DNA of 22,581 nucleotides from a virus. Location: positions 1 to 22,581 of IMG/VR virus record IMGVR_UViG_3300027704_000179; one strand, written 5' to 3'. The notes beneath the pieces were generated by a model. It was not told the DNA's origin. It worked only from the letters and a program-made list of their open reading frames with translations, and did no database searches. Shown here one piece after another: positions 5,956 to 15,392 of the stretch. Position 1 is the first letter of the stretch. Each line of letters begins with the position of its first letter. The translations under genes were made by a program, and so were the position numbers.

Positions 5956-6357
5956 TTAAATTATTGCTTTTATCATTTCATGAGAAGGATCTGGATCTAT
6001 AGTCCAACCTAACTCTTTATGTATTTTTAATAAGCTATTGCTTCTGCTTATTGACATCATAAATTTACTACCAGCTTCTTTAGTCATAGATTCTGCTGTT
6101 AGTATTAATTTTTTAATTGCCTCTTGCCTTATATCCCTATTAGTTTTAGGGTTTGATATGATCCAATCTAGCCATACCATTTTAGAATTACTCCAGTATA
6201 AAAATCCAGCTACCACATTTTCACCTTCATGCTCTATCATTATACCGCCTGTTCCGTTATCTGGTAACATGTCTCTGACTATTACAGGCCATTTCCATGC
6301 TTTCCACCAGTCTGTTAGTATTTCATAATCAGACTCAGTTAATGTTCTTGTATTCAT
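5956..6357 (-). CDS. GNAT-like N-acetyltransferase (133 aa)
   Basis: The length and layout fit a small GCN5-related acetyltransferase of a type common in marine phage genomes. The N-terminus reads TESDYEILTDWWKAWKWP, and phage GNAT-like proteins often begin with such an aromatic-rich helix. A central strand GFLYWSNSKMVWLDWIISNP is followed by RDIRQEAIKKLILTAESM, which occupies the place of the acetyl-CoA pyrophosphate-binding loop and helix. The canonical Q/RxxGxG/A loop is not evident, so catalytic competence is uncertain. The C-terminus (LLKIHKELGWT) resembles the usual beta6-alpha4 ending. The substrate is unknown. It lies inside the structural block, between the 537-residue tail protein and the internal proteins, so modification of a virion protein is possible but is inference. 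The leader is a TTAAA tandem repeat. The gaps are 10 bases on each side. Confidence 0.78.
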   Translation of the reverse strand: MNTRTLTESDYEILTDWWKAWKWPVIVRDMLPDNGTGGIMIEHEGENVVAGFLYWSNSKMVWLDWIISNPKTNRDIRQEAIKKLILTAESMTKEAGSKFMMSISRSNSLLKIHKELGWTIDPDPSHEMIKAII

Positions 6358-6372
6358 TTAATTTAATTTAAT
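6358..6372 (-). promoter_or_regulatory. 5-base A/T tandem repeat directly before start codon
   Basis: On the minus strand this reads ATTAAATTAAATTAA and abuts the ATG at 6357. It also overlaps the TAA stop of the preceding 537-residue gene. It has the same TTAAA unit as the leader of the gene starting at 3394. There is no Shine-Dalgarno sequence. Confidence 0.5.
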
Positions 6373-7981
6373 ATGATGATTCTACGTAATCTGAAGATAC
6401 AGAGAATAACTCTTTTTTAGTTGTAGGAAAGTTTATATTTTTTAATTTAAACTTAACTGTAGACCAAAATCCTTTTATACCAGAAATATCATTTCCAAAT
6501 ACAACTTCTCCAAATTGAGCAACTGTATTGGCTGATAAAGGTTGTTGTAAATTTGCAAAAAACTTATTTTCTTTACGTTTAAAATTTAAAGCAAATATAT
6601 TATTTTCTAAACCACCTAGTGTATTTAAAAAAGCTGTACTAAATGGATTTATAGGTAAACTTTGATCTCCTGAACTACCAATCATAGAGTCTAGTTCCCA
6701 TCCTAAAACACCTTCATAATTAATTGTTTTAAAGTTTTTAACTAAAGAAGGTTGTGCGTTTAAAATTACAGTAACATCTGAGTCGTTAGTGAAACCATAA
6801 AAATTACCATAACCATTGGCAGCAGTTGCAGGTGTATTATGAATGTAAAGTTTTCCTTGAAAAAAGCTATAAAAATTATTTATTAAACTGTCTACAAAAA
6901 CAGGTCTATAACTAAAGAAACTAGTCCAACCTAAAACACCTTCATCAAAAGATAATGTTTTAACTGGATCATTTCTAAATATTATACTTTCACTACCAGG
7001 CACAGGAACAATAATATCACATACAAAAGATGATGGATTACCACTTGATATTACAGACACAACTCTTCCGTACAAAGTAGTTACTACTTGACCTGCAGAA
7101 GTATATTTATAAATATTCATTCCAGGTGTTATATCAGTATTTTGAATAGACAATGTCAAAGTAACATTATTACCTATAGGAACAATATCATTTCCATTTT
7201 GAGTTACTCTACCAGTGTTGAATGGTCGTTGTAAAGAAATAGTATAATTTTTATTATGAGAATCCCAAGCACCAACTACTTTTTCAACAGCTGCTAATTC
7301 ATCTCTAAAAAAGTCATGCATACCATAAGACGATATTTCTGTCATACCATCTCTAGATAGCCTTAAAACAGCTCCTCTCTTCCTGTCGGTAAAGTATTTT
7401 CTATAACCATATACAGCAAAACTAGATGGGTCTGTAGCTATACCATATTCACCCGCGTAAGCTATAATTTGACCAATAACTAATTGACTTGATGTTATTG
7501 AAGCGTTACCTTCTGCAGAGTATATAGCATCTTTATCTATTAACGCTCTACTTACTTTATCTTCTTGAAATATAATTAAATTAGTATCTTCCGCGTATAG
7601 TCTTTGTATTGATCCATTTGCTGGATCAGCAGATTTAGTTATGTCTTCGGCTACAGAAAACTGATTAGTATTGTTTACTCCTGTTCTAGAGTTAAATATT
7701 CCTGAATATATAAGAGAATTAAACCTATGTTGTTGCAAAGGGTCTTCTTCGTCTAAATATGCTTTAACTCCAAAATCAACTGTTAAATTATTATAACCAC
7801 CTCTAATTCTTGCTTCCTCAATATACCAATCAGCCATTTCAGAACCAGGGGTTCCAGTAGCAGGATAAGCAGAGGGCACGGTTTGATATGGCGCAACTGG
7901 TTGCGGATCTGCTGCTACAACAGTTTGTAGCTTCTTTAACCAAAAGGTGTTGAAATATTTAACTTCTATTGTAGTTGCCAT
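6368..7981 (-). CDS. Tail nozzle-type structural protein (537 aa)
   Basis: The protein is beta-rich. It carries motifs I associate with nozzle or stabilisation proteins of aquatic podoviruses: FNSRTGVNNTNQFSVAEDIT (residues 96-115), LYAEDTNLIIFQEDKVSRAL (128-147), KDAIYSAEGN (150-159), GYRKYFTDRKRGAVLRLSRD (192-211), then FDEGVLGWTSFFSYRP (345-360) and VKNFKTINYEG (414-424). The repeated strand pattern suggests a beta-propeller. Between the RLSRDG and FDEGVLGWTSF blocks, residues about 257-340 look inserted and contain one copy of the recurrent PGM module (271-337). The gene follows the 1593-residue protein by 32 bases, and the two probably assemble in the same short tail. There is no enzymatic motif. 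Start ATG 7981 with an AT-rich leader, stop TAA inside the next leader repeat. Assignment rests on motif recall and synteny. Confidence 0.8.
   Translation of the reverse strand: MATTIEVKYFNTFWLKKLQTVVAADPQPVAPYQTVPSAYPATGTPGSEMADWYIEEARIRGGYNNLTVDFGVKAYLDEEDPLQQHRFNSLIYSGIFNSRTGVNNTNQFSVAEDITKSADPANGSIQRLYAEDTNLIIFQEDKVSRALIDKDAIYSAEGNASITSSQLVIGQIIAYAGEYGIATDPSSFAVYGYRKYFTDRKRGAVLRLSRDGMTEISSYGMHDFFRDELAAVEKVVGAWDSHNKNYTISLQRPFNTGRVTQNGNDIVPIGNNVTLTLSIQNTDITPGMNIYKYTSAGQVVTTLYGRVVSVISSGNPSSFVCDIIVPVPGSESIIFRNDPVKTLSFDEGVLGWTSFFSYRPVFVDSLINNFYSFFQGKLYIHNTPATAANGYGNFYGFTNDSDVTVILNAQPSLVKNFKTINYEGVLGWELDSMIGSSGDQSLPINPFSTAFLNTLGGLENNIFALNFKRKENKFFANLQQPLSANTVAQFGEVVFGNDISGIKGFWSTVKFKLKNINFPTTKKELFSVSSDYVESSY
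6971..7171 (-). repeat. Recurrent PGM beta module, copy in the 537-residue protein
   Basis: Residues about 271-337. The core reads NTDITPGMNIYKYTS, then YGRVVSVISS, then FVCDIIVPVPG. It aligns closely with residues 97-155 of the 475-residue connector protein: NT-(V/I)-x-PGM-x-I, YG-x-V-x-SV-x-SS, F-x-C-x-I-x-V. The module interrupts the nozzle-like sequence. Confidence 0.55.
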
Positions 7982-8013
7982 ACTTTATTATCACTTATTT
8001 TATTATATTATTA

Positions 8014-11000
8014 CTATGTGTTTCCACAAGACTGAGGATATCCGGGTGCTACTACTCCATTTTCTATTTTCATAACCACTCTATAAGGACCATAATTATT
8101 TGATGATGATATAGAGTAAAAACCATCAGGGGCAACAACAGTGTCGTTATTAGCTGCTGGAAAAGGTAATGAAGAAAATAAAACCCCTCCTTCAAGAGAT
8201 GGAGTTCCTTCGTATATTATTGATCCAGCTTGTGGCACCTTAACAATGTAAGAGGTGTCAGCAGGATTTGGAATTAAATCCACTAATAATGAAGGTGAAT
8301 AATAGAAATAATTTGGATTATAATTATAACCGGCACCAGACACAGGTTGCGCATTAAAAGCTGGACATGTCTGCGCAAGAGTTTCGGTAGGACCTCCTGT
8401 AAAACTTTGTGAGCAAGATAAATATTGCCCAGTATGAAAAATTAACGCTGTTCCATCAGATATAGATTCGGCACTATCTAGAGTGAAACTAGTCGGCGTA
8501 ATAATAGTGTTTATTATAGCAATGGCGGACGCTCCATTTATAACTGGATCTATATAGACTCCATCATTGACTTGAACAGCCCTTGTAGGCGCGGTTACAA
8601 TACTTAAATTAATGCTTGATAAAGGAGTGGGTGCATTGTTTCTTACTCCTGTAGAGCTAAAAGCAGGGTCAGGATAAGTACAGGCGTAGCCAGGTATGTA
8701 ATCAGCTTCTACTGTAACATCTAATACTTTAGTTAGTGATAAACTACCAGGTGTAGCAACATTAGTTCCGTTAAAAGCGTCTTCTAGTTTTATTGATAAA
8801 GAATTTAAACCAACAACTCCAGAAACAGTAGAATTTTTAGATATAGTTGCACTTCCATTAGCTCCAGCTGTAATACTAAAATAATTATTAGGGTTTGATC
8901 CAGGCAAAATACTCCATCTTAATTGTTGAGTTCTACCAGTAACATTTGCTGAACCATTAGTTCCATTAAGAGTTGCTATAACTCCAGTGACTGTATTGCT
9001 AACGGTAACAGGGGTTACAAGAAAAGCAGGCGCAATGTTTTGTAAACTTATTACTACTGGTAAAGATGCTTGTGTTCCGTCCGCATTATTAGTTACAGTA
9101 AAGGTAAGTGTAACCGTCCTTCCATTGGGGTCAAATAAGTAAGTTTGAAGACTACCTGCAATAGCGTTTGCCTTAATATTATAAACATATGGGTCCCCAA
9201 CTATTCCACTTCCACTGCTTTGAAATATTTCAAAAGAAACTGAACTATATGCAAATCCATTAGCATCTACAACACTATCTGGATATACTGGAATACTAGT
9301 GTCTGGTATATCTATTCCTTGAGAGCTTTGAGGTATTAAACCTACAACAACTTGAGTTGCAGACGGAAGACCTGTATTGACAATAGCTTCTGTATAAAGA
9401 CTACTGTCATAAGGGTTCCAGCCAACCGCACCAGTATATTCGTTAAGAATTTCTTCATTAAGATCACTAATTAAACCAACGCTAGGAGTTTCCCAGTATA
9501 TGTCTAGCAATGAGTCTACAGGCTCTGTTTCGTATATAGCTAAAAATGGAACCATGTTAGTGTTTACATCGTTTGTAGATGTAACACCTATGGCGCTTGA
9601 GGTTGATAATCTAGTGATTAAAGGATCACTATCTATTTGATATATATTAATTATACCATCAGAAGTAAGATCAAAAAAATCCATATTAGAATCATTAGCT
9701 GTAGCTATACTAATAGCTGTGTCAGTGTTTGTTCCAGGATAATATTGTCTATTATTTTTAGGATCACTATCTGCCGCTGGAGTGCTAATAATTAATTTGT
9801 TTTCTACTCTAGGAAATAATTGAACAGAACTTCTAAACTGTTGTTGCTGTGGACCTACTTCAATAAGATCTCTAGGAATTTTATTTATATTATCATTTAT
9901 TAAAACTACGTTAGCTGTTTTCCCATCTTCTCCAGTTGGAAAAGCCGCAAACGTTGATGGCGATAAATAGTTAAGTGTTGCATTTGCAGCAACTACCACG
10001 TTTCTATCAACAAAAACTTCAAAATTAACTAGGTTTTGAGCAACACCTATTACTACAGGTAATGGATTTGTAAGACCAGCACCATTCACTGTCATACCTG
10101 GTTTTATAAACTCAGCGGGTCCAGTATAAGTAGCACCAGCATATAAAATACTTGTAAAACCGACTCCTCCGTTTGCTAAATTATTATTTGTTGTTATACC
10201 ATTAAAGGTTTTTTGTTTAGGATAACCATTTAATATACCTGGAAGATAAACATTGTAATAATCTTGCTCCGTTTGTTTTACAACAATTTTATAAGAATAC
10301 CATCCTACAGGATTTAAATCATAAGCATATCTTATTTGATCTCCTGATCCATTATTTTTAATAGAATAATTTTCTTGACTAATTGGTCCATCACAAGTTA
10401 CAGTATATTCATTAGCAGCCAATGGGGATGTGAAAGTTAAATCAACAAACTGACCATAAACTATACTACTATTAGTTACAAAAGTATAATTAGCACCGTT
10501 CAAACCTGTTACACTTGTAATAAGGCATGGAGTTACAGTAGAGCTTGTTAACCCAGTAACCGCCCAACCTACACCAATGTTTTCATAACCAGCTGGAAGA
10601 ATATCTGCACGCAGATTTACGTTTGTTCCACCCTGTTGATCGAATCTTGTTGTAGCTACTATAGGTAGATTAGAAGCAATACTAATAACTTTAATATAGT
10701 CTTCAAATTGACCTCTTAAGTATGAACCTATAATAGGTCTACTAAAAGGGGTGATTGAATTAAGAAAAGTCATAGTGTTACCTGCAAACGTAGGATTTGC
10801 TCCTTTAACATTAAATCCTGAACCAACCTGTAAGCCATATAGCCCAGGTTCTCCACTTGTATTAGTACTAGATGTTATAATACTTGATATTTGTATTTTT
10901 AATGAATCACCAAGCCAATCTCTTGTTGGTAAATTAGTGGTAGAAGTGTAAGGATTATATATAGTAGAACCACCATATATAGTTCCATCACTAGAAGATG

Positions 11001-12795
11001 TACTTACATTTTTTACTCCAGACAAAATTACATCAGTTTGTCTTCCAAATTTATCAGCCAACACAAAACCAACTTGATAATTTCTGTTTTGTTTCACTGA
11101 GTGATTAGGAAATTCTGCCCAATTATCATTGTTGATTACAGAACTTTTAGGCCCAACTCCAACTATGTAATTTAATAATTGTGGTGGAGTGTATTTATCT
11201 AAAAAGTTTCCATATATAACTCTATTACCTGAGGTTTCTTGAGCTAAAGCTTTTACAGGAACTTTATCATAAACTCTAACGGTTTGAGTTTGAGGCAATG
11301 TTCTAAAAGGCTTTCTTGATTGATAGCTGTATTTATAAATATTACTAGTTGTTGTTGAAGTCCAAGGTAGATTTGTTACTGCATTTAATTCATCATAACT
11401 AACTGTGTCTATAATCTTTACGACAAGTCCATCTGATTCTTTGTATAATATATCTAAAGATTTAATTTTATAAGATGCTCCAGCTATAGGTTTGACTTGA
11501 TTTAATACATCTGGAAAAGGAATAAGTAATTCTATGTTTTGAACGCCATTTTCCATAAACTCTAATATTGTGCTTCTATAAGCAGCATCTTCGTCACCTT
11601 CTAGAAAATATCCTTTTTGTTTAGGTATAAAAGTAATAGGAGTAAATGGAGCCATTAAAGAATATTCACCATCATCAAATTCAAATCTATAACTTAATCT
11701 TATAAATTTACTTTCTAGATACTGTGGATCACCTGGCCAAGTAGTGGCTCCGTCATTAAAATTATAAGTTATTTTTTCACCAGTCATAGTGGTGCTTAAG
11801 AAATATATAGTATCTCCTGATGCTAAAACTGGATAACCTGTTGCATCTGTGTTTAATGTTACAGAGGTACTAGTAACACTTTCTACATATCTATAGTTAA
11901 TAGCTTTAAAATTATTATTACCATAGCTTACCGCTAACATACCTTTTTTAACACCAGACGTGTCCGCAATGCTTAAGACAGCACCAGTAGAGCCTGCGTT
12001 AGTAGTTTTTATAATTTTGTTTAATAAATCTATAGGTTGATAAGGATTATATTTAGCAACAGATATATCACTTTCTTTAGTATAATATGTTCCATTAGCT
12101 GCTGAATTAAAATTAATTTTTCTAGGTTGATTTCTGTTGTCAGTCCAAAATAATAATTCTTCTATTATACTTACACCAATAATTGGATTGTTTTTGTTAA
12201 AATTTAAAAAACTTCCAGATACTAACAAAGTAGTATTAAAAGTACTTACAAATTTATATATATAACAATTAGCAGTTGAAGGAGCTAGTTGTAAATCTCC
12301 ATCATAATCTGCTAAAAAAACAAAAATACAATTATTACTAGGGCTACTTTTGTATCCAATAACCTCTAATCCTTCTATATTAAAATGAACTGTAGATGAA
12401 GCCGCTACATCAACACCTAAGTTAGCCGCAAAAGTAACTCGAGTTTGACTAGCTATTGGAAACCCTTCCCTAACAGATGATACAATACCTATATCTTCTC
12501 CATATTTAATTGTTCCAGCTACCATTCCTGGTGCAATTGCTGCTCCAAAATTTTTTGAAAAATCAATATAATTTACAGAAGTCGGAGCAGATGTTTGAGC
12601 TGTTACTGTAAAAGGAATATTAAAATCTGTAGAAAGTTTATTTCCTAAAACAGTTTCTAAAGCACCTATATCATCAGCTTCAGATTTACCTACAGATATG
12701 TTCTGCGCGTCTCTATACTCACCATTAGGTATTAATCTATCATCCAAGTCTTTATTCATCTTGGATCTTAGAAAACTGTTTTTAATTTCTGCCAT
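8014..12795 (-). CDS. Giant multi-domain tail protein with nozzle-type N-terminus (1593 aa)
   Basis: This is the longest complete gene in the window. Residues 1-60 carry a block I associate with marine podovirus tail proteins: SKMNKDLDDRLIPNGEYRDA followed by QNISVGKSE and GALETVLGN. Residues 195-232 (FLNFNKNNPIIGVSI, LLFWTDNRNQPRKINF) and 368-395 (YRFEFDDGEYSLMAPFTPI) continue that family pattern and suggest a beta-propeller or nozzle body up to about residue 600. Divergent PGM-type beta modules lie near 75-139, 272-335, 739-800, 883-946 and 1390-1456. Residues about 1180-1365 look like a cadherin/Ig-like domain. The C-terminus (1366-1593) is Ser/Pro/Tyr/Gly-rich and contains Cys residues. 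Residues 600-1593 resemble an appended host-contact arm, and no separate tail-fibre gene is visible. Family roles come from motif recall; the receptor-binding role is inferred. It starts 5 bases after the connector gene's stop. The stop is TAG. Confidence 0.85.
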   Translation of the reverse strand: MAEIKNSFLRSKMNKDLDDRLIPNGEYRDAQNISVGKSEADDIGALETVLGNKLSTDFNIPFTVTAQTSAPTSVNYIDFSKNFGAAIAPGMVAGTIKYGEDIGIVSSVREGFPIASQTRVTFAANLGVDVAASSTVHFNIEGLEVIGYKSSPSNNCIFVFLADYDGDLQLAPSTANCYIYKFVSTFNTTLLVSGSFLNFNKNNPIIGVSIIEELLFWTDNRNQPRKINFNSAANGTYYTKESDISVAKYNPYQPIDLLNKIIKTTNAGSTGAVLSIADTSGVKKGMLAVSYGNNNFKAINYRYVESVTSTSVTLNTDATGYPVLASGDTIYFLSTTMTGEKITYNFNDGATTWPGDPQYLESKFIRLSYRFEFDDGEYSLMAPFTPITFIPKQKGYFLEGDEDAAYRSTILEFMENGVQNIELLIPFPDVLNQVKPIAGASYKIKSLDILYKESDGLVVKIIDTVSYDELNAVTNLPWTSTTTSNIYKYSYQSRKPFRTLPQTQTVRVYDKVPVKALAQETSGNRVIYGNFLDKYTPPQLLNYIVGVGPKSSVINNDNWAEFPNHSVKQNRNYQVGFVLADKFGRQTDVILSGVKNVSTSSSDGTIYGGSTIYNPYTSTTNLPTRDWLGDSLKIQISSIITSSTNTSGEPGLYGLQVGSGFNVKGANPTFAGNTMTFLNSITPFSRPIIGSYLRGQFEDYIKVISIASNLPIVATTRFDQQGGTNVNLRADILPAGYENIGVGWAVTGLTSSTVTPCLITSVTGLNGANYTFVTNSSIVYGQFVDLTFTSPLAANEYTVTCDGPISQENYSIKNNGSGDQIRYAYDLNPVGWYSYKIVVKQTEQDYYNVYLPGILNGYPKQKTFNGITTNNNLANGGVGFTSILYAGATYTGPAEFIKPGMTVNGAGLTNPLPVVIGVAQNLVNFEVFVDRNVVVAANATLNYLSPSTFAAFPTGEDGKTANVVLINDNINKIPRDLIEVGPQQQQFRSSVQLFPRVENKLIISTPAADSDPKNNRQYYPGTNTDTAISIATANDSNMDFFDLTSDGIINIYQIDSDPLITRLSTSSAIGVTSTNDVNTNMVPFLAIYETEPVDSLLDIYWETPSVGLISDLNEEILNEYTGAVGWNPYDSSLYTEAIVNTGLPSATQVVVGLIPQSSQGIDIPDTSIPVYPDSVVDANGFAYSSVSFEIFQSSGSGIVGDPYVYNIKANAIAGSLQTYLFDPNGRTVTLTFTVTNNADGTQASLPVVISLQNIAPAFLVTPVTVSNTVTGVIATLNGTNGSANVTGRTQQLRWSILPGSNPNNYFSITAGANGSATISKNSTVSGVVGLNSLSIKLEDAFNGTNVATPGSLSLTKVLDVTVEADYIPGYACTYPDPAFSSTGVRNNAPTPLSSINLSIVTAPTRAVQVNDGVYIDPVINGASAIAIINTIITPTSFTLDSAESISDGTALIFHTGQYLSCSQSFTGGPTETLAQTCPAFNAQPVSGAGYNYNPNYFYYSPSLLVDLIPNPADTSYIVKVPQAGSIIYEGTPSLEGGVLFSSLPFPAANNDTVVAPDGFYSISSSNNYGPYRVVMKIENGVVAPGYPQSCGNT
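8428..8628 (-). repeat. Recurrent beta module, C-terminal copy in the 1593-residue protein
   Basis: Residues about 1390-1456. The pattern is VQVNDGVYIDPV, then AIAIINTIITPTSFTLDSAE, then DGTALIFHTG. It keeps the strand order of the other copies but has DGV in place of PGM. This is one of the weaker copies. Confidence 0.35.
8701..9258 (-). other. Cadherin/Ig-like domain coding region in the 1593-residue protein
   Basis: Residues about 1180-1365. A strand-rich stretch contains LRWSILPGSNPNNYFSIT, then GSATISKNSTVSGVVGLNSL and SIKLEDAFNG. This spacing (a W/Y-S-I strand, a G-x-A/I-T/S turn, then a strand ending x-L-x-x-x-D) resembles cadherin or He_PIG-type surface domains. Canonical cadherin calcium motifs such as DxNDN were not found. 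An adhesion role is inferred. Confidence 0.4.
9958..10149 (-). repeat. Recurrent PGM beta module, copy in the 1593-residue protein
   Basis: Residues about 883-946. The core is IKPGMTVNGAGL, ending in VVVAANATLNYLSPS. It aligns well with the module in the 385-residue protein (IQVGMTVTGVGI, ending QTIAANTSLTYTSP). This is one of the strongest cross-gene matches. Confidence 0.55.
10396..10581 (-). repeat. Recurrent beta module, central copy in the 1593-residue protein
   Basis: Residues about 739-800. It reads VGWAVTGLTSSTVTPCLITS, then ANYTFVTNSSIVYGQFVDLT, then FTSPL. The PGM turn is replaced by VGW, but the V-x-G, I-x-SV and L-T-F-T-S-P-L positions match other copies. Confidence 0.4.
11791..11982 (-). 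repeat. Recurrent beta module, second copy in the 1593-residue protein
   Basis: Residues about 272-335. It reads AVLSIADTSGVKKGMLAVSY, then YVESVTSTSVTLN, then LASGDTIYFLS. The pattern is GM-x-V, then ESV-x-S-x-S-V-T-L, then a closing hydrophobic strand. Confidence 0.45.
12379..12573 (-). repeat. Recurrent PGM beta module, first copy in the 1593-residue protein
   Basis: Residues about 75-139. It reads IAPGMVAGTIKYGEDIGIVS, then SSVREG, then RVTFAANLGVDVAASSTVHF. It follows directly after the conserved N-terminal tail block (residues 1-60), so it looks inserted into the tail protein. Confidence 0.45.
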
Positions 12796-12800
12796 GTTTA

Positions 12801-14228
12801 TTATTTAATCCATTTTGATTTACCTCTCATAACTTGAATTATTTGATCAAGTTTAATATTAGATAATCTAATTTTAGCATTTCTTAATTTAGCACTTCTT
12901 TCTTGTTTAAATCTTCTTACAATATATTCTTGGACATTGGCACTAGTAGCAACTATAGCATGCACTATGTGTGCGTATAAAGCATCTTCTGCCATTTTAG
13001 GTATTCTCATATCTAAATCATAAGCATTACCGTCAGATATATACTCTAGTATAATTATTTGATTTTTTAATTCACTGCTAAAATTAAAAGTACCTTCTGT
13101 TTCGTTTATTGTAAACCACCCATTTTTTTGACTTGTTTGTGGTTCGAGTCCATATCTTTGTCCTAATAAAGCATCATATTGACCATTAATTAAAACATTT
13201 GCTTCTATGTCTTCTCGTTTAAAAGCTCCACTTATTCTTCTTGGATCGTTACCCGCCCAAGCGGCTTCTGTTTGAGAAGTACCTTGAATATTAGCGTCTT
13301 GACTATCTTGCGTTGGCACACCTAAACTATCTTGAACTGGACTAGAAGAAGGATTTGTTGTTAATTCGTTAGCAGGATAAATAGTATGTTGAACACCTAA
13401 ACCATCGGTCCAAGATAATCTAACATAATTAACATAATCTTGAGGTATAATAATACTTAAAGCGTTGTTTACAGAAAGTTCTTGTGATCTTGTAGATTTT
13501 AACGTATCATAACTAAATTCTTGTAAACCTCTTTTTGCATGAAAAATAACATCAGTTCTTTTTACACTAGGTATAATCTTGCCAGCGCCTACATATGCAA
13601 TTAAAAAGTTATCTATGACATCAGTTAATCTTGTGTATTCATAACTACCATAATTCTGATTAATAACATCTTGGTTTAATTGTATTTTAATATAAGTATT
13701 AGCAGCTAAATAAGATGCAATAGTTATAATATTTGCTGTAAGCATTGCCCAAGGTGATGGGGAATTTAGCCTTAAAGCAACTCCCGCAATTAAAGCCGGA
13801 ATAGCTACAGTAATATTACAAATAAAAGTAGTAGAACTTGTTACCGAAGTTACAGAACCATATGTGATTGTTCCTGTGCTATTTTTAATTAGCATGCCAG
13901 GTACAACATTTGTATTAGCAATTAAAATTACAATAGTTTGTGAAGTGCCTAAAGCAACTCCAGCAGCAGGGGCAAGCATTGTAGTAGTAGATACCGCAGC
14001 ATCAGAAGTTAACTCAGTCCACGTTAAAGCATTTGGACTAGTAAAAATTTTAAAGCTATTTAATAAATAACTATTGTTTGATACGTCTGAACTACCAAAA
14101 ATTAAAGGAGTGTCAAAAGTAGATGTAATTGTCTGACCTGCACCCGCGGTAGTTATATATTTCTGCTGGGCTCCAGCGTAATATTGTCTGTTAGTTTCGG
14201 TTATTAAACCACCATTAGGTATAGACAT
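12801..14228 (-). CDS. Connector / ring (tail tubular A-like) protein with N-terminal extension (475 aa)
   Basis: Residues about 195-475 look like the core of a head-tail connector of the podovirus gp4/gp11 type: a helix RLTDVIDNFLIAYVGAGKII, then KRTDVIFHAKRGLQEFSYDT, a strand block LSIIIPQDYVNYVRLSWTDG, and a C-terminal helical region with MRIPKMAEDALYAHIVHAIV and a basic end (ERSAKLRNAKIRLSNIK). Residues 1-194 are a beta-rich extension that this core family does not need. It includes LLNSFKIFTSPNALTWTELT, which resembles part of a discoidin-like fold, and a PGM module at 97-155. The likely role is the ring joining the portal to the tail nozzle; this is from motif pattern and position. The gene lies 6 bases after the 385-residue protein and 5 before the giant tail gene, so the three are probably co-translated. 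Confidence 0.83.
   Translation of the reverse strand: MSIPNGGLITETNRQYYAGAQQKYITTAGAGQTITSTFDTPLIFGSSDVSNNSYLLNSFKIFTSPNALTWTELTSDAAVSTTTMLAPAAGVALGTSQTIVILIANTNVVPGMLIKNSTGTITYGSVTSVTSSTTFICNITVAIPALIAGVALRLNSPSPWAMLTANIITIASYLAANTYIKIQLNQDVINQNYGSYEYTRLTDVIDNFLIAYVGAGKIIPSVKRTDVIFHAKRGLQEFSYDTLKSTRSQELSVNNALSIIIPQDYVNYVRLSWTDGLGVQHTIYPANELTTNPSSSPVQDSLGVPTQDSQDANIQGTSQTEAAWAGNDPRRISGAFKREDIEANVLINGQYDALLGQRYGLEPQTSQKNGWFTINETEGTFNFSSELKNQIIILEYISDGNAYDLDMRIPKMAEDALYAHIVHAIVATSANVQEYIVRRFKQERSAKLRNAKIRLSNIKLDQIIQVMRGKSKWIK
13764..13940 (-). repeat. Recurrent PGM beta module, copy in the 475-residue protein
   Basis: Residues about 97-155. The core is ANTNVVPGMLIKNSTG, then YGSVTSVTSSTTFICNITVA, then a strand ending RLNSP. 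The closest relative in the window is the copy in the 537-residue protein. Confidence 0.55.
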
Positions 14229-14234
14229 AATTTA

Positions 14235-15392
14235 TTATCTTTGTTGATTTTGATTTTCTTGAGCAATTTGTGAAGCTGCAATTTGAACTATTTGAGGATC
14301 TTTAATTACAACACCAGCGTATAATAAAATCTTTAATATTAATTCTGTTTGTTCAGCCGGATGTAATTCAAAATCAAATGATGTTAATGGATTAAAAACA
14401 TAAGCATTGTTAGATACTGTAAAATCCCAAACTGGATTCAAAGGTCTTCTCATATAAGAAAGAGTTATACCGCTTGTAATTGACGTTGGATAAACTGTTA
14501 ATTGATTGTTTTTAAATGTATATATAGGATACGTAACCGTTGGCTGTGTAAGATTTGAACTAAGCATATGATACAAAGATGATGCATCAACTCTTTCAAT
14601 CTCCTGAGCAGGTAAGGCTCCTGAAGTATAAAATGAACTACCCAATTTGTAGAATTGTTTAGGGTATACATTTACAGTAAGAATTCTGTTTAAAGCTGGT
14701 TGAACATAAAAGGTTATTGTTAACCCAGATACGCTATAGTCGGTGGCAGAAACCAAAGTACCACTTGCATAAATTTCTACTACACTATTGTCTACTTGAT
14801 TTGCTGTAACTGTTTGACCAGCAGCATTAGCACTAATAGTATATACTAAAGGACTAGTGTAAGTTAAAGAAGTATTTGCAGCTATTGTTTGAGCTGAACT
14901 TAAGGTAACAAGTTGATCATTTGTAACAAAAGTAATTGTAACGTCTCCAACTATACCTACACCAGTAACTGTCATACCAACCTGTATGCTTGTATTTGCT
15001 GTTGCTAAACTTAATTGAGTAGTAGTTGTTGCGTTATTGTTTGTTGTGATTGTTCCTGTATTAGGAAGAGATGTGGTTAGGCTTAACGCGGATAATAACC
15101 CAGAATATTGTTGTGGTAAATTAAAAACGTTACTTGAAGATATTGATATAGCGCTTCCGAATTCTTTAAATAAAGATATTTTTTCGTCTAAAGTAGTTAC
15201 TCTGTCTGAAAAATCAGCATCAGCTTGTGGAATACGTAACTGTTGGTTTAAGCTCTCAAAATATGTTTCAAATATTTCTAGTTGAGCTTGTTCACCTGTT
15301 CTATTAAACTCAACAGGTGTCATATAACCTCTCTGTTCTTTATTAAGTATTAATAAAACGGTTTGATATACAGTATTTACGTTTATTGCCAT
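14235..15392 (-). CDS. Probable head-tail connector / neck protein (385 aa)
   Basis: Residues 1-80 are helical (NVNTVYQTVLLILNKEQRGY, then EFNRTGEQAQLEIFETYFES), a beginning I associate with conserved neck-region proteins of aquatic podoviruses. The C-terminal part (about 262-385) has QEIERVDASSLYHMLSSNLT, strands YPIYTFKNNQLTVYPTSI and LSYMRRPLNPVW, and a closing helix LHPAEQTELILKILLYAG. The middle, residues about 105-245, is Thr/Ser/Val-rich, beta-like and looks inserted. It holds one PGM module (126-181) and a second beta stretch (185-245). It lies after the capsid region and immediately before the 475-residue ring protein, so a role between portal and tail is likely, though no exact family could be named. 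The upstream gap of 64 bases contains several inverted repeats. Start ATG 15392, stop TAA. Confidence 0.8.
   Translation of the reverse strand: MAINVNTVYQTVLLILNKEQRGYMTPVEFNRTGEQAQLEIFETYFESLNQQLRIPQADADFSDRVTTLDEKISLFKEFGSAISISSSNVFNLPQQYSGLLSALSLTTSLPNTGTITTNNNATTTTQLSLATANTSIQVGMTVTGVGIVGDVTITFVTNDQLVTLSSAQTIAANTSLTYTSPLVYTISANAAGQTVTANQVDNSVVEIYASGTLVSATDYSVSGLTITFYVQPALNRILTVNVYPKQFYKLGSSFYTSGALPAQEIERVDASSLYHMLSSNLTQPTVTYPIYTFKNNQLTVYPTSITSGITLSYMRRPLNPVWDFTVSNNAYVFNPLTSFDFELHPAEQTELILKILLYAGVVIKDPQIVQIAASQIAQENQNQQR
14850..15017 (-). repeat. Recurrent PGM beta module, copy in the 385-residue protein
   Basis: Residues about 126-181. The core is TSIQVGMTVTGVGIVGDVTI, then FVTNDQLVTLSSAQTI, then AANTSLTYTSPL. 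It is the closest match to residues 883-946 of the 1593-residue protein. Confidence 0.55.

Follow-up and report, generated by a model that had tools for sequence, protein, structure and literature searches.

The 22,581-base window analysed here, which is the whole of the stand-alone virus record IMGVR_UViG_3300027704_000179, encodes four consecutive proteins of 385, 475, 1593 and 537 residues (R385, R475, S1593 and M537), in which a preliminary description had noticed divergent copies of one beta-rich unit. This raises the questions whether these stretches are indeed copies of a single module, how they came to lie in different proteins, and what they may do on the phage particle.

Identity of the carrier proteins

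The window represents a contig of a marine crAss-like phage. All of its sizeable genes are carried by the minus strand, in the order terminase fragment, portal (phrog_6547, 3e-150), a 392-residue protein, major capsid protein (MCP), a 254-residue protein (P254), R385, R475, S1593, M537, and further proteins. S1593 (8014..12795, minus strand) and M537 (6368..7981, minus strand) together are the crassvirus muzzle, split over two genes. The family profile of S1593, the N-terminal muzzle protein, matched residues 1-152 of crAss001 gp44 (E=7e-8; hhalign), and the best PDB matches of its structural model were the crAss001 muzzle chains 7qol_P and 7qok_A (E about 1.5e-6; Foldseek). Similarly, M537, the C-terminal muzzle protein, matched the Pfam family crAss_MUZ_C above the cut-off (3.1e-7), and its family profile matched gp44 residues 1033-1292 (E=8.5e-11; hhalign). 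This split (6368-12795) was kept in all 68 related contigs in which both genes were readable, with gaps of 8-85 bases, whereas gp44 is a single gene in crAss001 and an elemo phage has one gene, for a product of 1493 aa, at the muzzle place. Adjoining the muzzle, positions 5956-6357 encode a 133-residue protein (phrog_17252, 2e-31) with, by eye, the look of a GNAT-type acetyltransferase.

R385 (14235..15392, minus strand) and R475 (12801..14228, minus strand) are probable tail-barrel ring proteins, as judged from gene order and core size. R385 matched phrog_14543 (virion structural protein, 1.9e-33) and R475 matched phrog_13977 (4.8e-34), the latter gene immediately preceding the muzzle, as crAss001 gp43 does. 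Crassvirus ring proteins have a three-helix and beta-sandwich fold, with gp34, gp35, gp40 and gp43 as the crAss001 members; comparison by hhalign with three of these (gp34, gp40 and gp43) gave no relation to R385 or R475. The isolates nearest by R475 were Maribacter phage Panino, Flavobacterium elemo phages and Cellulophaga phages. In Panino, the ring-protein counterparts are 230 and 290 residues long and the muzzle-type protein 946 residues.

Copies of the module and their relatedness

The four reading frames and the motifs quoted in the preliminary description were present, and profile searches converged on a unit that recurs in all four proteins, although its size, given as roughly 45-65 residues, had to be corrected to about 60-70 (~65) residues. 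Four copies are secure, namely residues 114-179 of R385 (14856..15053; HMM i-E 4.2e-16), 96-162 of R475 (13743..13943; 1.8e-8), 271-337 of M537 (6971..7171; 9.5e-8), and 270-338 of S1593 (11782..11988; 1.1e-6), all on the minus strand and the last three values obtained with an R385-seeded profile. The initial list had the four carrier proteins right but missed S1593:270-338, the strongest copy in that protein.

The HMM search across proteins that had been proposed as a check showed that, whichever of R385, R475 and S1593:262-340 served as the start, iterated profiles recover the others, with E-values of 1e-4 to 1e-13 and no reversed decoy below 0.09. The pairing of R475 with M537, proposed as a strong one, was borne out as well (BLASTP E=2e-9 between the segments; phmmer i-E 7.7e-5 against about 4,100 sequences, of which one half were reversed decoys). 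A profile for which only copies from outside this record were used gave 52.2 bits for R385, 23.9 for R475, 10.5 for M537, 10.4 for S1593:275-332, and 9.1 for S1593:1427-1453, the highest score that shuffling any of these proteins yielded (300 shuffles) being 8.1 bits; since these outside copies had been collected by profiles seeded with the record's sequence, this test is free of the record's own rows but not of the seed choice.

Three further stretches of S1593, all on the minus strand, were more divergent. Residues 1383-1453 (8437..8649) probably represent a fifth copy, with an i-E of 0.049 in the database search and the above score for residues 1427-1453, higher than all shuffles. Residues 880-946 (9958..10158) likely form a copy too, weaker than the four main ones. 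The preliminary description had paired residues 883-946 with the R385 copy, and BLASTP on hand-chosen segments agreed (E=2e-5), but the i-E was only 0.36 in an unbiased database search. With the profile of outside copies, residues 897-941 scored 3.7 bits, above the 95th percentile of the shuffles (2.0) and below their maximum (6.1), and the strands predicted by AlphaFold (880-885, 902-905, 914-920, 925-933 and 940-944), with modest pLDDT, fit the order of the module. Finally, residues 64-142 (12370..12606) are an insertion that is absent from homologues and from crAss001 gp44 and is possibly a module, one being present at the same site in the related contig L016 (L-numbers denote such contigs). 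This stretch had no HMM match to the module profile and no confident fold in the AlphaFold model of S1593 residues 1-1080, which was mostly of low confidence (pLDDT 58.5) and unfit to judge residues 64-142 and 700-790.

Beta-rich loops that evolved independently could in principle resemble each other through a composition rich in T, V, S and N and through convergence of small beta folds. The divergence of the family (mean column identity of 22%) and the poor scores of S1593 residues 883-946 and 64-142 would suit such an origin. However, reversed decoys never passed, composition-preserving shuffles stayed below the four main copies, and copies in different carrier proteins reached up to 55% identity. 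Furthermore, the signature G[MS]..YG.V..F.C.I occurred in nine R475 homologues, three M537 homologues and one S1593 homologue, with zero matches in shuffled or reversed proteins. Independent origin is hence very improbable overall, and for the R385, R475, M537 and S1593:270 copies it is already largely refuted.

Sequence searches of Pfam, NCBIfam and the PDB with the module returned no significant family, and none of 72 copies matched a Pfam family. Single copies gave nothing significant against isolate phages (tblastn), a scan of genome contigs gave no relatives, and a scan of viral contigs with one copy gave four only. Maribacter phage Panino had no match to the module, and Flavobacterium elemoF just weak ones. 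Single members did match PHROGs, with values down to 9.6e-7.

R385 contains a second, different accessory beta-domain at residues 182-250 (14643..14849, minus strand), which is missing from homologues of 231-266 residues and has a sub-threshold match to Pfam CBM_X2 (E=0.0014). Its sequence is of the NG..L....DY..SG..ITF type. With the R475 regions flanking the module it has weak profile similarity, and a relationship to that part of R475 is possible. The R475 copy itself sits within an N-terminal region (residues 1-190) without isolate match, as isolates align only from about residue 191. Both proteins look assembled in layers.

Insertion, gain and loss among relatives

Alignment of the carrier proteins with homologues, another suggested check, agreed with the initial view that the copies are insertions between conserved blocks, as homologues without exactly these stretches exist for every carrier. 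About residues 97-163 are missing from close R475 homologues (400-412 residues) and about residues 94-196 from R385 homologues (the module being absent from those of 231-328 residues); M537 homologues (about 440 residues) lack about residues 252-341, and S1593 homologues lack residues 64-142 and about 864-942. Among complete open reading frames from related contigs, the module was present in 5 of 133 R385, 35 of 118 R475, 46 of 66 S1593 and 10 of 56 M537 proteins; all of the 113 portal proteins, 131 P254 proteins, 142 MCPs and 1038 other proteins were without it. A further home is a protein of 172-260 residues encoded upstream of the terminase gene, encountered in a search of 12 whole contigs, with a 95-residue core, two sites (A and B) and the architectures A, B and AB; an empty-core form was not found with a query that itself holds a module. 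Apart from this small protein, only ring and muzzle proteins carry the family. One example of the small protein (L162:2393-2911), starting with MIRNYYTE and with two module slots, matched no Pfam family, nor was a relative found in isolates.

The module occupies about 15 sites in the ring and muzzle proteins, in addition to sites A and B of the small protein. Junctions lie at one position in R475, in six bins in M537 and at about ten positions in S1593, and the full alignment placed those of R385 at two positions, one in this phage, L024 and L089, and the other downstream in L017 and L018. The S1593:270 site holds 44 of the mapped S1593 copies and is near-constant in relatives. R475 homologues of about 630-650 residues with two or three module matches, tandem or nested, were seen in L038 (7063-8964) and L039 (10001-11962).

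These varied positions, together with gain and loss on the protein trees, fit the mobile domain that the preliminary description had considered. The core trees require at least three changes for the R385 module and at least five for that of M537. In R475, a single gain was followed by fixation in one clade (31/31 rows, support 99), so that the module is not always a recent insertion.

The route of spread is a separate matter. Duplication within each phage genome, as originally put forward, would also be compatible with a decorating function, and the YG.V/F.C subfamily, which occurs in both R475 and M537 of this phage and in both M537 and S1593 of L013, is what hints at such local movement. Yet copies in different proteins of the same genome had a mean identity of 19.7%, and those of different genomes 19.5% (p=0.32); a shared genome thus brings no closer similarity, so that exchange between phages fits the data equally well. 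Moreover, the nearest copies to that of R385 in other proteins belong to other phages, with 48% identity to the L222 AUX, L041 and L016 S1593, and L018 M537 copies. Spread mainly by intragenomic duplication is therefore unlikely. On the module tree, 18 changes of carrier were counted against a least possible number of four, but the supported branches force just one origin per carrier, the columns being too few to prove transfers.

Predicted fold and possible role of the module

An AlphaFold model of the R385 module, made with 72 diverse copies, is confident and has six strands (mean pLDDT 83.6; core 92-95), in agreement with the beta-rich character noted initially. Foldseek matches in BFVD comprised many phage virion proteins (probability about 1.0, TMq 0.47-0.72), including a virion structural protein of cyanophage S-PM2, an HK97-type capsid protein, a tail sheath protein, tail collar proteins and fibres. 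The clearest phage match in the PDB was 8eci_1 of Arthrobacter phage Bridgette (probability 1.00, TMq 0.60, E=0.15). This chain, named "Decoration protein", was also the top profile hit of the module in the sequence library, with a non-significant E-value of 0.67; it has 31% identity to the module and a common G..(I/V)T..GI..GT.I..V motif, but it is a separate protein of the capsid, from an unrelated phage, whereas the module is an inserted domain. As no match in the PDB or BFVD reached E<=0.001, the fold class and a homology to decoration proteins are a lead, both being suggestive only. Barrels of F1-ATPase and E1 enzymes among the PDB matches (TM about 0.5) hint that the module may be a small barrel.

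The virion beta-domains of cyanophages and uncultured Caudovirales (Q5GQW2 of S-PM2; PHROGs 5838 and 6005) resemble the module (Foldseek probability 1.00, TMq up to 0.72), but they are unnamed and occur in other proteins, and in the papers searched they were not found to be described as a single family. Phage Ig-like domains are accessory beta-domains that occur in proteins of the head and tail and in decoration proteins, and several of these domains are thought to help in adhesion (PMC7602432). The module is likewise accessory, sporadic and present in several virion proteins. In contrast, it has a predicted six-strand fold and lies in ring and muzzle loops. Assignment to the Ig superfamily was rejected, given no Ig match in Pfam for the 72 copies and top structural hits that are not Ig. 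A BACON domain (PF13004) was discarded for want of a Pfam match, as was the crassvirus MCP I-domain, with the module profile in 0 of 142 MCPs. The muzzle of crAss001 does carry beta-domains inserted in its propeller, IG1 and IG2 of gp44, the former with a 130-residue Ig-like fold (PMC10172136). By alignment, the S1593:270 copy begins near the IG1 slot (gp44 residues 163-292), about 29 residues past the segment aligned to gp44 residue 152; gp44 was not among the best 50 Foldseek matches listed for the module.

Taken together, the module is probably a promiscuous accessory domain, about 65 residues long and with six strands, that decorates the tail barrel and muzzle of marine crAss-like phages. 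As the cores of the carrier proteins are intact on both flanks, the two ends of an insert would be near each other, and the domain would stick out from its carrier. Surfaces of the tail and muzzle, and a small protein of virion type, would be natural locations for a decoration. In-frame recombination between phage genes would insert the module into loops of ring proteins, the two-gene muzzle and the small terminase-upstream protein, leaving the conserved core unharmed on either side, and the module would then bud outward and decorate the outside of the barrel and muzzle. In R475 it is now fixed in one clade, with gain and loss still going on in R385 and M537. Its likeliest use may be a weak, repetitive contact with the outside, for example with host surface polymers, or particle stability, after the model of capsid decoration proteins and the Ig-like domains of phages; no feature that would bind a ligand was recognised. 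Published decoration proteins serve both surface binding and stabilisation (PMC7602432). In the published crassvirus structure, the muzzle is described as variable through insertions, with a possible change of its surface properties (PMC10172136).

A shared oligomer interface, considered initially, is disfavoured by the many homologues without the module. A related alternative is that like-with-like beta-domains on neighbouring rings and the muzzle act as structural cement that locks the tail barrel, possibly with disulphides. It would account for fixation in the R475 clade and near-constancy at S1593:270, and for a cysteine at one fixed module column in 14 of 31 R475 and 3 of 11 M537 copies, the crAss001 tail being stabilised by R1-R2 disulphides (PMC10172136). 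Nevertheless, this cysteine is missing in most copies, and many relatives with the same core proteins do without the module in R385, R475 or M537, which leaves a cementing function improbable compared with decoration. Still, the near-fixed main copy of R475 and that at S1593:270 could have a structural rather than an adhesive role. In the part of their study consulted here, Smug et al. (2023) report that mobile domains recur in phage proteins that are unrelated to each other, especially in tails, with domain shuffling mainly in receptor-binding proteins, endolysins, polymerases and neck proteins (PMC10684548); neither the module family nor crass tail barrels were found in that part. Promiscuous decoration domains of phages are a known kind, and neither this module family nor its deployment in crass tails appears to have been described.

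As to wider meaning, part of the muzzle variation, reported as insertions of unknown nature, and part of the variation of the probable ring proteins can be traced to one domain family. This family is nameless in Pfam and NCBIfam and offers a starting point for the annotation of many "virion structural proteins". More tentatively, and with some doubt, one interchangeable non-Ig decoration module might be common to the two-slot small protein, the rings and the muzzle, so that recombination would retune the particle surface by means of one building block. Crassviruses count among the most common known phages; for the decoration of their tails, the module is a concrete, testable candidate.
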